The notes beneath the pieces were generated by a model, which worked only from the letters and a program-made list of their open reading frames with translations, ran no database searches and was not told where the DNA came from. From a virus: DNA of 64,000 nt. Below are positions 18,496 through 51,779 of the stretch, in pieces (position 1 is the first letter of the stretch; each line of letters opens with the position of its first letter). Location: IMG/VR virus record IMGVR_UViG_3300028895_000635, positions 1-64,000 of that record, one strand, 5' to 3'. A program made the position numbers and the translations under genes.

Positions 18496-19149
18496 TCAGC
18501 GTTCCATCATCTTCACCCGGTGCTGCGGGCCAGCAAGCGCCATCAGGTCGTCCTCCTGCTCTGGCGTAAGCCATTGCGGGATACCGACTAACGACGCGGC
18601 CACCAAGCTCTGCGCAGCGTCCTCGACGATCTGGCAGCGGAAGAACGCCTGTCGCATAGTCGTACCCAAGGCACAGAAGCCATGGTTGACCATGAAGATC
18701 GACTCGGCTTCCTTGGCAGCCTCCGCCATCCGGTCGGCTAGTTCCTGTGTGGTAGGCGTGACATACGGCACCGTGGCACGCCGGCCCAGATCATTGACTA
18801 CCTCAGCGAACATCGCCCGTTGCGCCATATCTAGGCCTGAGCTGATCACGCCACACAGCCAAGGCGAATGTACGTGGAACACGGCGTGGATGTCTGGACG
18901 CGCTCGATAGATGGCCAGATGCATCTGGGTCTCAGACGTCGGCTTGTAGGTGCGCGTACGCGGCTTGCCGCTGTCGATCGCCACGGGGCACAGCTGACGT
19001 ATGTGCAACTCACCCAGGGACAACCCGCTCGGCGACAGCCAGGCGGTGTCGCCGTCGCGCGCACTGATGTTGCCGCCAGAGCCAACAACCAAGTGTGCGT
19101 CGTAGAGCTTCTTGCCGTATCGGACTAGGGCGTGTGTGATAGCACTCAT
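18496..19149 (-). CDS. class II aldolase/adducin family protein
   Basis: 217 residues from the ATG at 19149, which overlaps the stop of the Tat-signal gene. LVVGSGGNISAR (20-31), SETQMH with the catalytic Glu at 73, AVFHVHSP with zinc ligands H92 and H94, and MVNHG for the third His match L-fuculose-1-phosphate and related aldolases. These split sugar phosphates into DHAP and lactaldehyde, or run in reverse. The link with a mutarotase and a fucosyltransferase-like gene suggests 6-deoxy-sugar metabolism. Confidence 0.83.
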   Translation of the reverse strand: MSAITHALVRYGKKLYDAHLVVGSGGNISARDGDTAWLSPSGLSLGELHIRQLCPVAIDSGKPRTRTYKPTSETQMHLAIYRARPDIHAVFHVHSPWLCGVISSGLDMAQRAMFAEVVNDLGRRATVPYVTPTTQELADRMAEAAKEAESIFMVNHGFCALGTTMRQAFFRCQIVEDAAQSLVAASLVGIPQWLTPEQEDDLMALAGPQHRVKMMER

Positions 19150-19910
19150 TAGCAATAGTTCTCGTACTGCAGGCCACCAGGAATTTCCACGATGGCCGAC
19201 TGTTCGATCACGTGGCACCAGGAGAAGAGTTCGATCATGTAGGCTTCCTTCTTCACGTGGCAGTGCAGGCCGTCCACAGCGAGTTCCAGCGACACAGGAA
19301 CGTCCTTGTGCATCATGCGGATCTCGTGGACCGGTCCCATCGTAGAGCAGGCCAGCGCAATCATTACGCGCCGCTCGTGTGTGTTATCGAAGGACGCCTC
19401 GTCCCAGTCCCACGTCCATTTGGGCGACACGATGCGCCGCGGCATGTGCGGTAGGCCGCCAGCAGGGAACGGTCGCGGCTCGCACCAGCGAGGTAGCGCA
19501 TCCACCATGGCGTAGCGCATGCCAACGGACAGCAGGGAGCTGAAATGCTCGTCATTCGCTGCCTGGTCTACCAACCAGCCCAGCGGATGCTTAGGCTCAG
19601 GCAGCCCGTCGAGCTTCTCTCCGCGGGACATGTGCATGCTAAGCGGTATCGTAGAGAACGGTACTGCCACAGCGCGCGTCCCCGTGGCTATGCCGTGCTT
19701 CTTCAGCACCTTGGCGTACTCGAGGATCTGCGTGGCGACCATGTCCGGTACGTCCGCAGTCTTGTCCGACTTGAGCTGGGACGCCATGCGCTCCTGTTCG
19801 GTCTTCATCAGTGCCTGCTCGGTTTCCATGTCACAGCCGTTGGCTGCCATCAGCGTGGACTGAGAGATCAGGCCGGCGCCTGCCAGCCCTAGAAAGCTTC
19901 TGCGTTTCAT
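19149..19910 (-). CDS. Tat-signal exported protein, function unknown
   Basis: 253 residues. MKRRSFLGLAGAGLI starts a twin-arginine signal (R3, R4, F6, L7) with an AMAANG-like processing region near residue 22 (LMAANG). The mature part is alpha/beta with many His, Trp and Met and no recognised domain. GGAG precedes the ATG by seven bases. It is the first gene of the 19.9-14 kb run, driven by the promoter at 19946-19974. Export of a folded protein by a phage gene is unusual; it may bind a metal or cofactor, which Tat substrates often do. Confidence 0.65.
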   Translation of the reverse strand: MKRRSFLGLAGAGLISQSTLMAANGCDMETEQALMKTEQERMASQLKSDKTADVPDMVATQILEYAKVLKKHGIATGTRAVAVPFSTIPLSMHMSRGEKLDGLPEPKHPLGWLVDQAANDEHFSSLLSVGMRYAMVDALPRWCEPRPFPAGGLPHMPRRIVSPKWTWDWDEASFDNTHERRVMIALACSTMGPVHEIRMMHKDVPVSLELAVDGLHCHVKKEAYMIELFSWCHVIEQSAIVEIPGGLQYENYC

Positions 19911-34460: not shown

Positions 34461-34534
34461 CTCCTTTCAAATCTTGTTCATGTGATCAAAAAGAAGGGCG
34501 CCCGAAGGCGCCCCAGGTCAAAGGTCACCAGGCA
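34461..34534. repeat. duplicated regulatory module, first copy (terminator, dyad box copy 4, leader)
   Basis: Nearly identical to 34916-34986 except for a 3-bp insertion. Reading the minus strand: GGGCGCC-TTCG-GGCGCCC stem (34496-34514) with a T-run ends the gene at 34546; the dyad box TTGATCACATGAACAA lies at 34474-34489; then comes the leader with AAAGGAGG for the gene at 33981. The terminator and box overlap, so the box starts as transcription of the upstream gene stops. Confidence 0.7.
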
Positions 34535-34915: not shown

Positions 34916-34986
34916 CTCCTTTCAAATCTTGTTCATGTGATCAAAAAGGGCGCCCGAAGGCGCCCCAGGTCAAAGGTCACCAGGCA
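34916..34986. repeat. duplicated regulatory module, second copy (terminator, dyad box copy 5, leader)
   Basis: On the minus strand: a GGGCGCC-TTCG-GGCGCCC terminator at 34948-34966 with a TTTTT run, then the dyad box at 34929-34944, then TTTGAAAGGAG before the gene at 34908. About 71 bp identical to the first copy. The terminator follows the stop at 34977 by 11 bp. Confidence 0.7.
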
Positions 34987-37258: not shown

Positions 37259-37276
37259 CGTTCCTCCTTTTGAACT

Positions 37277-37292
37277 TTGTTCATGTGATCAA
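37277..37292. promoter_or_regulatory. dyad box (copy 6)
   Basis: TTGATCACATGAACAA on the minus strand. Its TGA is the stop codon of the coiled-coil gene at 37289. It ends 18 bp before the start of the next gene. Confidence 0.55.
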
Positions 37293-38152
37293 GATTCGTC
37301 CTCTGCGGCCTCCTCTTCGCGCAACTTGCGCAGTCTGCGGTGTTGTTTCTGTCGCTCCGCAACAGTGGGCTGAGAACCGAATATCCTCCGCTTCCGCGGG
37401 GGTGGCGGTTCGGCACCGGGCTTGTCGCTCGAATCGCTCAAGCTGCTTCGAGCTATGAGCTTCGTGCGGGTGGAATCCTCAGGCGCGATAAACCAGTCGC
37501 GCATCCAGCGACACAGCTTGGCCATCTGCTTGTCCTGGCCCTTGCCCATACGTGAGCCGATATTGGTATCTTTGCCGTATTGCATGCCCGGCACCTCGAT
37601 ACCAACAGGTATGCCGATCATAGCCATCAGGGCGACAAACATTCCGAGGGTGTTGTAGTCGTAGCCCTCCTGCTTGAACAGCACGTCGTGCAACCGTACT
37701 TCGTAGTATTTGCCCGCCCTGGAGAATCCACTGGTAGGCGGTGCCCAACGTAGACGGCGACGCACTTCCTTAGAGAGATTCACAAACCACATGCTATCGA
37801 AGGTCATCTCGACAGCAGGGTGTTTGGGTTCCAGCTCGGCCTGCAGCCTTGCCTGCTCTTTGAGTAGCCGCGTTTTGTCGGCGGTTATCTGCGTGAGCTT
37901 CTGGGTCAGCTTGCCCAGCTCAGCTTCCAGCTCAGCGATACGGGCATTCGTCGGAGCCAGCGCAGCAACTGCTTTCTTGGCACGCTCATCGGCCTCGGCT
38001 GCCTGCGTGCGCAGCTCCGCGTTCGTACGGCGTAACTGCGCCTGTAAGTCTTGTACCTTCGTTAGATACGACATGGCCGTCTCGTCGTGCGCAACGTACT
38101 TTTGTAGATCGGCCATAGCCGCCTTAGCTTCTCGTCTGAGTTTCGACGCCAT
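37289..38152 (-). CDS. coiled-coil protein with globular C-terminal domain
   Basis: 287 residues. Residues about 12-110 form a long coiled coil rich in Ala, Glu, Lys and Gln. A globular part (about 112-210) contains MWFVNLSKEVRRRLRW, a hydrophobic stretch (LGMFVALMAMIGIPVGI, possibly buried or membrane-touching), and MRDWFIAPED. The tail is Pro and Arg-rich. It ends in the dyad box. No family recognised; structure suggests an oligomeric scaffold or DNA-binding protein. Confidence 0.6.
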   Translation of the reverse strand: MASKLRREAKAAMADLQKYVAHDETAMSYLTKVQDLQAQLRRTNAELRTQAAEADERAKKAVAALAPTNARIAELEAELGKLTQKLTQITADKTRLLKEQARLQAELEPKHPAVEMTFDSMWFVNLSKEVRRRLRWAPPTSGFSRAGKYYEVRLHDVLFKQEGYDYNTLGMFVALMAMIGIPVGIEVPGMQYGKDTNIGSRMGKGQDKQMAKLCRWMRDWFIAPEDSTRTKLIARSSLSDSSDKPGAEPPPPRKRRIFGSQPTVAERQKQHRRLRKLREEEAAEDES

Positions 38153-38420: not shown

Positions 38421-38491
38421 AGTAAGGTTCCTTGTAAAGAGGGAGGGGTAAGCTACTGGTCCAACATATTAGACTGCCGTGTTTCAGCACT

Positions 38492-38507
38492 TTGTTCACA
38501 TGATCAA
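38492..38507. promoter_or_regulatory. dyad box (copy 9)
   Basis: On the minus strand TTGATCATGTGAACAA, in the spacer between the terminator at 38523 and the zinc-knuckle gene. A TAATAT sequence lies about 20 bp downstream, so it could overlap a promoter here. Confidence 0.45.
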
Positions 38508-38522
38508 GATCGGCTGAGGGCT

Positions 38523-38565
38523 AAAGAAAAGAGGCAGGGCCCTGGGCTTGCGCCCAGAGCCCTGC
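38523..38565 (-). terminator. rho-independent terminator
   Basis: On the minus strand GCAGGGC...GCCCTGC stem with inner GGGC/GCCC pairs, then CTCTTTTCTTT. 19 bp after the stop of the gene at 38584. Confidence 0.75.
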
Positions 38566-39248: not shown

Positions 39249-40004
39249 TCACGTGTAGGCCACGTGTTTCTCCTTTCTGTGTCTATGCGCCAACAGCACG
39301 CAGGTGCCGATGATCAGCATGGTGATCGTGGATGGTTCAGGCGTAATCGCAAAGCCTCCTGTGCCATGATCGAAAGAGCCTACGAACGACGCCTCGACTG
39401 TGTCCACGTCGATGGTCCACAGCGTACCGTTGTTCCAGGCATACAGCCCGTCGGGACCGTAATCGAACGCCCAGAACGTGTGACCGGGTAGCTGGCCAAG
39501 CGGGGTCGTTGAGCCAGACAGCATATCGACCTCGACCAGCCACTTGGATGCCTGATCCCAAATGAACGCCCGGCTGTCTGGCGCAATCGCAAACGCCTCG
39601 ATACTGACATACGGGAAGAGCGTGTGCATGACCCAGTAGCCGCCGTGCTCGGTATCGATCATGACCAGTTCGTTGTCATAATTGATGCCAAACAGGTTAT
39701 CCATTGGATCGAACGCTATGCTCCTGCATGTCCGGGGCGTCGTGCCGATGTACGTGCCGAGGCCAGACACGGGATCGATAGTCCACAGCTTCTCGTGCAT
39801 GCTGGTGGCGTACAGCGTGCCGTCTGAGCTGCTATCGAGTGCGCGCACAGCCGCTATGCCGCTAGGGCCGCGTTGTGACTGTACGCCGGTTGAAAAGTCG
39901 GTGAGGTACAGAACAGAGTTGGCTGTACTGTCAACGACGTAGCCGACAGTCTCCGCGCTAGCAAAGCACGGAGTCAACAGAATCAGCAGCAATGCGTACC
40001 GCAT
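39249..40004 (-). CDS. secreted beta-propeller-like protein with PEP-CTERM sorting signal
   Basis: 251 residues from the ATG at 40004, because AGGAGG sits inside the longer frame starting at 40025. A Sec signal (residues 1-17) is followed by about seven short strand repeats of the propeller type (DSSSDGTLYAT, AFDPMDNLFGI, APDSRAFIW, DYGPDGLYAW). The C-terminus has TPEPST, then a hydrophobic segment (TMLIIGTCVLLA) and a basic HRHRKEK end, the three-part signal cut by exosortase. The product would be sorted to the host cell surface or matrix. A phage encoding this signal is unusual and points to a host with exosortase. Confidence 0.72.
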   Translation of the reverse strand: MRYALLLILLTPCFASAETVGYVVDSTANSVLYLTDFSTGVQSQRGPSGIAAVRALDSSSDGTLYATSMHEKLWTIDPVSGLGTYIGTTPRTCRSIAFDPMDNLFGINYDNELVMIDTEHGGYWVMHTLFPYVSIEAFAIAPDSRAFIWDQASKWLVEVDMLSGSTTPLGQLPGHTFWAFDYGPDGLYAWNNGTLWTIDVDTVEASFVGSFDHGTGGFAITPEPSTITMLIIGTCVLLAHRHRKEKHVAYT

Positions 40005-40344
40005 CGTCGAACTCCTCCTCTTCATAGGGGAGCATTAGCGTCTGCCAGTAATCGTCTTGTGCCATTTCTGCCATCCAGCCTTCAACGCCAAGACGGTGCA
40101 GCCGCGAGTAATGCTTCCTGATGTAAGGAACACGGGGGTCTTCCTCCCTGTCCAAACGCTCCAGCTCCGCTATCGCTTCGTCCGTCTCAAGCAGCAGTAG
40201 CCGCTTGAGCCAGGACAACGTGTACTTCGCGTCGCGCACAAGCTGCGCATTCAACGCGCTACTGGCCGCCGACGACGTCCGTGTGGACGCTGTCCGCCAG
40301 TAGTCAGTGACGATCTGCAACACTCTGTCGCGGGTATACGACAT
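39958..40344 (-). CDS. small helical protein
   Basis: 128 residues. Helical throughout with an Arg/Asp-rich middle and an acidic tail. Its 3' end overlaps the PEP-CTERM gene's start by 47 bp. A CAGAAAGGAG site lies upstream of the ATG. No known family. Confidence 0.55.
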   Translation of the reverse strand: MSYTRDRVLQIVTDYWRTASTRTSSAASSALNAQLVRDAKYTLSWLKRLLLLETDEAIAELERLDREEDPRVPYIRKHYSRLHRLGVEGWMAEMAQDDYWQTLMLPYEEEEFDDAVRIAADSVDSVLC

Positions 40345-49763: not shown

Positions 49764-51779
49764 TTACATCATGGGCATGCCACCCATGGGCTGACCGCCC
49801 ATCGGCGGTGGGGCCATGCTTCCTTGCTGGCCCGCCATTGCAGCCTCCTGGCCCATCTGCCTGCCACGAGCTTCGGACTGCGAGTCCATCTGCTCCAGCA
49901 GCGACTTGACCAGGCTGTGGATCGTCGGATTACGCTGCTTGAGCTGTCGCAGCGCAGATTGCCGCTGGCCGCCAGGCATAGCGTAAATCTGCTGAGCAAT
50001 GGTCTGTGCAATGGATTCCAGTTCTGGCGGGGTGAGCCCCTGCTCGTTGCCCATAGGCAGCTGCGCCATGACCGCCTGGACCGGATCCATCGGCATCGCT
50101 GCCTGATCCGGTGACGGTGCCTCGCCACCCATAGGTGCGGCACCACCGGCTGCTCCGGGCTGGACCGGCGGCACCACGCCACCAGCACCTGGCCCAGGCA
50201 TAGCGCCCATGGCCGCAGGATCGCCCCCAGCGGCTCCTGGGCCGCCTGCGCCCATTGCCAGTTGATCGCCCAGTCCGCTCGCTTCGAGCTCCTCCTGGGC
50301 CTTCTGGGACTCCTCAGCGACGAATTTCTGCTCCTCCAGCATGCGCTTCTGCTCGTCCTCGAATACCAGGCCCACGCCTCTGCGAAGGCCGGTAGTCTGG
50401 GAGACCTGGCCACCCATCATCAGCTGCAGGACAGCCAACTGACGGTTCAGGTCGTCTGCGTGGCTCGGGCGCGCTAGCCGGGCGGTCACCTCGTCCCAGC
50501 TGAGCGCCACCGAGATCTTGTTGCAGATCCACTGGAGGTAGTTGTTCAGCATGTAGGTCAGGTGGCTCCAGTGACTCTCCATGAGCCGCAGGGCCGCGGG
50601 CGCAGCCTGTACAGTGAGATCGCCCTTGTAGAACTGCACAGGGATACCTACCGAAGACAGCAGCGTGTCGAGCGCCTGGTCCATGAGCTGGTAGGGTGCC
50701 AACTGGCTGGCCTCACCACCGAGCGCCTGGTAGCGCACCGGGAACGGCAGCGTGAACCACGTGGTCGGGTCTTGCCGCCGCTGCCGCAGCATGGAATTGA
50801 CCTGCCCAGTGAAACCGCCGAGATCGGCAGTGAACAGCGGGTCTGTCATCTCACCGCCGCCTGCTCCGCCGCCCGGCCGAGGCTCGGGGGTCAGCACGCG
50901 GAACGGGATGATATAGTCGAGGCCGATTGCCTCGTTGTATCGGTGCAGTACCTGGAGATACCAGGCCTGCCGGAAGTTGGTCAGCACGCGGCTGATGCCC
51001 CAGCCTTTGTTCAGTACACCAGCAAGGGTATCCTCCTTGCCATGGTAGATCACGTCCTTGTTGAACTCGATGTGCGTGTTGTTCTTGACAGCCTGCACAA
51101 CCTCCCACGGAGCGCGCTCCAAATGGAAGAGGGTACCTCTGGTGATGTACTGCTTGTAATGCTGCGGGATGCGCCAGATGTGTCCGACCTCGTCGGTATA
51201 CGGATCCCAGGCGAGTTCCATCTCGTGCGGGCTCCAGCGCTTGATGATCAGATCGTCTTCCTCGTGGGAGCGGCGGTCGATGTGCGTCCACTTGCCGTGG
51301 TAGTTGCAGAATGGGCAATGCGCACGGAACTCTGAGCCCTGCCACGTGTAGCTGAACTTCTCGTTGCCGTGGATCTGGCGCAGGGGCGCCTCGAACCCAC
51401 AGCCCGGGCACGAGAGGTTGCGCCGGAACGGGATCACGACCGATCCGAAGAAGTTGCCGTAGGTGCAGTAGTCGAGCGCGGCCTGCCGCAGCTCTGTATG
51501 GATTCCCAACGTGTTGTTCAGGAAGTCGAGATACTTCTCCTTCCCGTCACGGTCAGTGCCGTCGATTTCGACCTCAGTGATGAAGTACGAGATCACCCGG
51601 TCTACTGCAGACCGGTAGACACCGTTTGCCAACATGATGTATTCGCACCACCGCATAGCGTTCTGCAGTGAGCTGGGCATCGCTGTCGAGGCATAGTCAC
51701 AGAATGGGTCCGGGAATGGCTCGACGTTTTGCGAACCGAGATTGGCCCCACCCGTGAAGTTGGGAATCAGATACGACAT
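49764..51779 (-). CDS. portal-like protein with zinc-finger insertion
   Basis: 671 residues. The long central region (about 55-460) with SAVDRVISYFITEVEI, an AALDYCTYGNFFGSVVIPF strand pair, RWSPHEMELAWDP, and LDYIIPFRVLTP resembles portal proteins of large phages in length and layout. Unusually, two CxxC pairs (C124/C127 and C155/C158) form a zinc finger inside the wing. The last 150 residues are Gly/Pro/Met-rich, helical and low-complexity. The portal is the DNA-packaging gate of the head. I recognise the pattern rather than a sequence match. Confidence 0.55.
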   Translation of the reverse strand: MSYLIPNFTGGANLGSQNVEPFPDPFCDYASTAMPSSLQNAMRWCEYIMLANGVYRSAVDRVISYFITEVEIDGTDRDGKEKYLDFLNNTLGIHTELRQAALDYCTYGNFFGSVVIPFRRNLSCPGCGFEAPLRQIHGNEKFSYTWQGSEFRAHCPFCNYHGKWTHIDRRSHEEDDLIIKRWSPHEMELAWDPYTDEVGHIWRIPQHYKQYITRGTLFHLERAPWEVVQAVKNNTHIEFNKDVIYHGKEDTLAGVLNKGWGISRVLTNFRQAWYLQVLHRYNEAIGLDYIIPFRVLTPEPRPGGGAGGGEMTDPLFTADLGGFTGQVNSMLRQRRQDPTTWFTLPFPVRYQALGGEASQLAPYQLMDQALDTLLSSVGIPVQFYKGDLTVQAAPAALRLMESHWSHLTYMLNNYLQWICNKISVALSWDEVTARLARPSHADDLNRQLAVLQLMMGGQVSQTTGLRRGVGLVFEDEQKRMLEEQKFVAEESQKAQEELEASGLGDQLAMGAGGPGAAGGDPAAMGAMPGPGAGGVVPPVQPGAAGGAAPMGGEAPSPDQAAMPMDPVQAVMAQLPMGNEQGLTPPELESIAQTIAQQIYAMPGGQRQSALRQLKQRNPTIHSLVKSLLEQMDSQSEARGRQMGQEAAMAGQQGSMAPPPMGGQPMGGMPMM

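Follow-up and report, generated by a model that had tools for sequence, protein, structure and literature searches.

The window, a stretch of 64,000 nucleotides from a virus record (IMGVR_UViG_3300028895_000635), carries on its minus strand a gene for a β-propeller-like protein that begins with a signal peptide and ends in a tail of the PEP-CTERM type (Table 1). The longest open reading frame at this position in the ORF list of the window spans 39249-40025. To judge from the upstream sequence (GAGGAGGAG-TTCGACG-ATG), 40004 is likely a better start than 40025, because a good ribosome-binding site lies seven bases before its ATG; the start originally predicted is thus borne out. The upstream open reading frame, which lies on the same strand, is probably co-transcribed with the gene. 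GC3 is 0.726 for the gene versus a phage median of 0.720 and therefore, by this crude measure, the gene is no very recent arrival.

Table 1. Features of the PEP-CTERM locus and the portal gene, in window coordinates.
Feature	Position	Strand	Basis or remark
PEP-CTERM β-propeller-like protein	39249..40004	-	250 aa plus stop
Stretch before the 40004 start, with ribosome-binding site GAGGAGGAG	40005..40025	-	
Sec signal peptide MRYALLLILLTPCFASA	39954..40004	-	sequence by inspection; hydropathy peak
About five β-propeller-like repeats, DUF4394-like	39345..39953	-	each roughly 40 residues
PEP-CTERM tail TPEPSTITMLIIGTCVLLAHRHRKEKHVAYT	39252..39344	-	TIGR02595 match at 39273-39344
Upstream ORF of 128 aa, its end overlapping the gene start	39958..40344	-	ORF list
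Portal protein	49764..51779	-	26-27% identity; weak PHROG portal matches

Results

Signal peptide, tail and propeller-like body

The signal peptide ends in ASA, and hydropathy analysis revealed only two strongly hydrophobic stretches in the protein, one in the signal peptide (RYALLLILLTPCFASA) and the other near the C-terminus (STITMLIIGTCVLLA). A PEP motif, a hydrophobic helix and a basic cluster are all present within the last 30 residues (PEPST-ITMLIIGTCVLLA-HRHRK), so that the C-terminal end consists of TPEPST, the hydrophobic stretch and then HRHRKEKHVAYT. The rather long end that follows the basic cluster, EKHVAYT, was counted against the explanation preferred below. TIGR02595, the NCBI PEP-CTERM model, matched residues 228-251 of 258 at 17.1 bits, above its cut-off of 16 (19.7 bits on the DNA), but the Pfam model PF07589 scored 17.3 bits (E 0.0052) against a gathering score of 20.7. 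The original prediction of a complete PEP-CTERM substrate therefore holds by architecture and by TIGR02595, and falls short by the Pfam model. A profile made from other viral PEP-CTERM tails only ranked the ORF first among 5188 six-frame segments of a 226-kb record of the same phage, with an E-value of 0.0036, compared with 3.2 for the next-best segment.

The internal repeats of the body scored above 199 of 200 shuffles. The DUF4394 model PF14339 gave 27.1 bits (E 3.2e-6), under its gathering score of 29.6; its similarity to DUF4394 suggests that the protein is related, and we do not file it as a member. There was also a sequence match to the PDB chain SconeE (E 2e-4), which we take to be a designed propeller. 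A single-sequence AlphaFold model had low confidence overall (mean pLDDT 54) and reached 73-86 over residues 141-220. It consists of all-β repeats that matched β-propellers of the PDB in Foldseek (E 5e-8), which would fit the propeller-like repeats proposed earlier; the number of blades, about five, is uncertain.

The phage and the setting of the gene

The window forms part of a 74,085-base virus record, the sequence of which is also contained in a 226,453-base IMG/VR record, and the two agree at 99.95-99.97% identity on both sides of the gene. The window record thus represents part of a phage genome that is 226 kb long or longer. Genes for a gpA-type terminase, a family A DNA polymerase, a primase, a DnaB-type helicase and a UvsX-like recombinase are found in the 226-kb record and, together with the portal gene, confirm that the PEP-CTERM gene is phage-borne. 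The portal identifies the record as that of a tailed phage; the counterparts behind the identity in Table 1 are the Salmonella phage Arash portal and proteins from Vibrio phages D69, D148 and D181, and the terminase matches these same phages. In either phage record, only one PEP-CTERM tail passes the TIGR02595 cut-off, and neither record (74 kb, 226 kb) encodes an exosortase.

Several other features of these records deserve mention. The family A DNA polymerase (G001:191100-194321 in the 226-kb record) bears a uracil-DNA glycosylase domain at its N-terminus as well as an exonuclease domain. A match to RNA polymerase Rpb1 domain 5 at G001:95794-97683 (E 2.4e-20) suggests that phages of this lineage may encode parts of a multi-subunit RNA polymerase of their own. 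In the window, a 253-aa protein (19149-19910) has an N-terminus, MKRRSFLGLAGAGLI, that resembles a Tat signal, unusual in a phage protein. An intergenic element, CTCCTTTCAAATCTTGTTCATGTGATCAAAAAG, recurs between accessory genes (34461-34534, 34916-34986, 37264-37296 and 38475-38529), some copies being followed by a G+C-rich hairpin; it may serve in regulation or as a site at which gene cassettes recombine. Beside the PEP-CTERM gene, an additional ~1.57 kb is present in the 226-kb record (L001:9552-11125), flanked by two copies of a short intergenic repeat and holding a 467-aa ORF (L001:9559-10962), which the window at 38475-38529 has lost or never had.

Related viral contigs, whose portals are 67-79% identical, share the window genes at ~42-63 kb and, within the flanks that were fetched, have no match to the window at ~30-42 kb. 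Neither a PEP-CTERM tail nor a relative of the protein was found in the nine related phage records; because several of these are fragments, the absence is likely, not proven. Within its lineage the gene has therefore been found in one phage only, which we counted against the explanation preferred below, and its absence from the nine contigs marks it as accessory. Since an accessory gene may be dispensable, and infection may go on when it is lost or fails, the earlier proposal that it limits the host range to exosortase-positive bacteria does not follow.

Bacterial relatives

No relative of the protein was found in PHROGs or by tblastn of 50,697 phage genomes, and a search of 84,980 species genomes from bacteria and archaea gave no close one; a plasmid search returned weak matches only. 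More sensitive searches detected distant relatives both in the phylum of genome G037 (51 of 392 genomes) and in that of a Terrimicrobiaceae genome (27 of 379); part of the latter set matches mainly via the tail. The bacterial proteins L230 and L239 share the whole architecture of signal peptide, propeller repeats and PEP-CTERM tail with the phage protein, at 28 and 30% identity. Proteins of this build occur in a verrucomicrobial genome and in a phylum that is probably Planctomycetota. We infer this affiliation for the phylum of G037, a 9.1-Mb genome labelled Nealsonbacteria that has several exosortase matches; the EUB338-II 16S probe, used as a check for Planctomycetota, had matches in only 4 of 149 genomes.

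The PEPSTITM flavour of the tail was considered as a pointer to one host phylum and rejected, as true tails of this kind occur in several groups (Methylobacter, Acidobacteriia, Terrimicrobiaceae, Kiritimatiellaeota and one seemingly mislabelled MAG); many other matches are due to chance. An exosortase was present in all four PEPSTITM-bearing bacterial genomes tested.

PEP-CTERM tails in other viral contigs

We scanned 2.9 million viral contigs with a DNA pattern that encodes PEPST and then hydrophobic positions, and took a tail as genuine if it lay C-terminally at the end of an ORF with a hydrophobic helix and a basic end. Genuine tails made up 25 of the 113 matches, the target included, and about twenty of them are distinct. 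The same scan with the permuted motif EPPTS yielded none among 53 matches, and a chance origin of the motif was rejected on this comparison. All 23 further viral records checked passed TIGR02595, and at least six of these contigs carry a terminase (Terminase_6N above cut-off); some of the other PEP-CTERM contigs may be proviruses with host flanks.

In two related phages (G005 and G016), the PEP-CTERM gene occupies a syntenic position between the same neighbours, with proteins that are unlike each other beyond the tail. In G005, the gene has terminase and RecT-like genes nearby, and in another contig, G023, an endolysin gene. Two viral PEP-CTERM proteins (L054:7211-7915 and L121:6568-7116) are homologous, with 38% identity over 165 residues and a shared region, MHFG...C...VPT.C.N.S..TR, and on this similarity appear to form a phage PEP-CTERM family. 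Viral contigs G003, G015 and G020 encode a repetitive PEP-CTERM protein that reaches 826 aa (L221:16773-19888); in G003, a prepilin-like gene adjoins it.

Discussion

In the PEP-CTERM/exosortase (EpsH) system, a signal peptide directs the export of the bacterial proteins, and their PEP motif, which may be a site of recognition or processing, precedes a transmembrane helix and then a basic cluster (PMC1569441). The system is known from Planctomycetes, Verrucomicrobia, Cyanobacteria and Proteobacteria, and species that have it possess outer membranes and exopolysaccharide (Haft et al. 2006, PMC1569441). According to work cited in PMC12642866, some bacteria need PEP-CTERM proteins to form flocs. 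The phage protein has the corresponding parts, namely a signal peptide, a variable body, the PEP motif, a transmembrane helix and a basic cluster. Unlike the substrates of the EpsH system, it is phage-encoded, occurs in one copy and has no exosortase in the phage records; phages are not mentioned in PMC1569441. The bacterial propellers L230 and L239, which are DUF4394-like, resemble it over the full length, but they reside in bacterial genomes, and the phage protein has diverged from them and has a longer basic end. With phage moron and superinfection-exclusion proteins of the envelope it may share the purpose of placing a phage protein at the host envelope, although this mode of sorting would be new. 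A search of titles and abstracts, covering few subscription papers, found no paper on phage-encoded PEP-CTERM proteins. By architecture the protein thus belongs to a known class, and its phage setting and recurrence in viral contigs appear to be undescribed in the literature searched.

Since no exosortase is encoded in the phage records, sorting would have to rely on an exosortase of the host, as the original prediction held, and the phage probably uses it to display or release the protein. We consider it reasonably probable that this is an accessory gene from a bacterial family of PEP-CTERM propellers, the product of which is sorted by the host exosortase to the surface or matrix, where it would bind and alter access. 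The gene would be a moron-type accessory of a large tailed phage, with a secreted bacterial propeller family ending in PEP-CTERM as its source. The infected cell would make the protein with its Sec signal; the protein would pass the inner membrane and be held there by its C-terminal helix until the host exosortase cuts at PEP and the protein moves on to the surface of the cell or into the matrix. At that site the propeller would probably bind a surface or matrix molecule, possibly glycans or a receptor, and so alter the access of other phages or of neighbours. Possible outcomes are both the exclusion of other phages and a change of the matrix.

Other explanations have to be weighed against this one. 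The gene could be a passenger, taken up from a host into a variable region and either sorted as in that host or unexpressed, with no benefit to the phage. Its absence from the nine related contigs and its position in the variable ~30-42 kb stretch are what such an origin would leave; however, its third-position codon composition is that of the phage, the gene is intact and has a good ribosome-binding site, and tags of this kind are found again in other phages, and we regard this account as rather unlikely. Less probable still is that the tail serves as a membrane anchor only, in a host that has no exosortase, leaving the protein in the inner membrane facing the periplasm, where it might, for example, block DNA entry. 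The score under the Pfam cut-off speaks for this, but the exact PEPST, the correct spacing, the basic cluster and the TIGR02595 match argue against it, as do the bacterial relatives of the same build, which likewise end in PEP-CTERM tails.

β-propellers are common binding modules, and this general fact is what would suggest a virion or lysis protein whose likeness to PEP-CTERM is incidental. The signal peptide, the failure to find a phage homologue in PHROGs or in the phage genomes searched and the location of the gene apart from the conserved structural genes make this very improbable. That the locus is a chimera made in assembly, or DNA of a host binned as viral, has a negligible probability: the record is metagenomic, but the 74-kb and 226-kb records, which may come from related samples, agree around the gene, and a single PEP-CTERM tail exceeds the cut-off in either.

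Returning to the sorting of the phage protein by a host exosortase, the recurrence of genuine tails raises a wider idea, which we put forward tentatively: that phages whose hosts have exosortases take up PEP-CTERM proteins time and again and retain them, with the host exosortase as a standing route to reshape the surface of the infected cell, for example to exclude superinfecting phages or to change the matrix. With roughly twenty viral tails that are distinct, the idea of phage substrates is directly testable. If it is true, PEP-CTERM genes in viral contigs would hint at the host group, and exosortase sorting, known as a bacterial surface system, would be brought into the conflict between phage and host.
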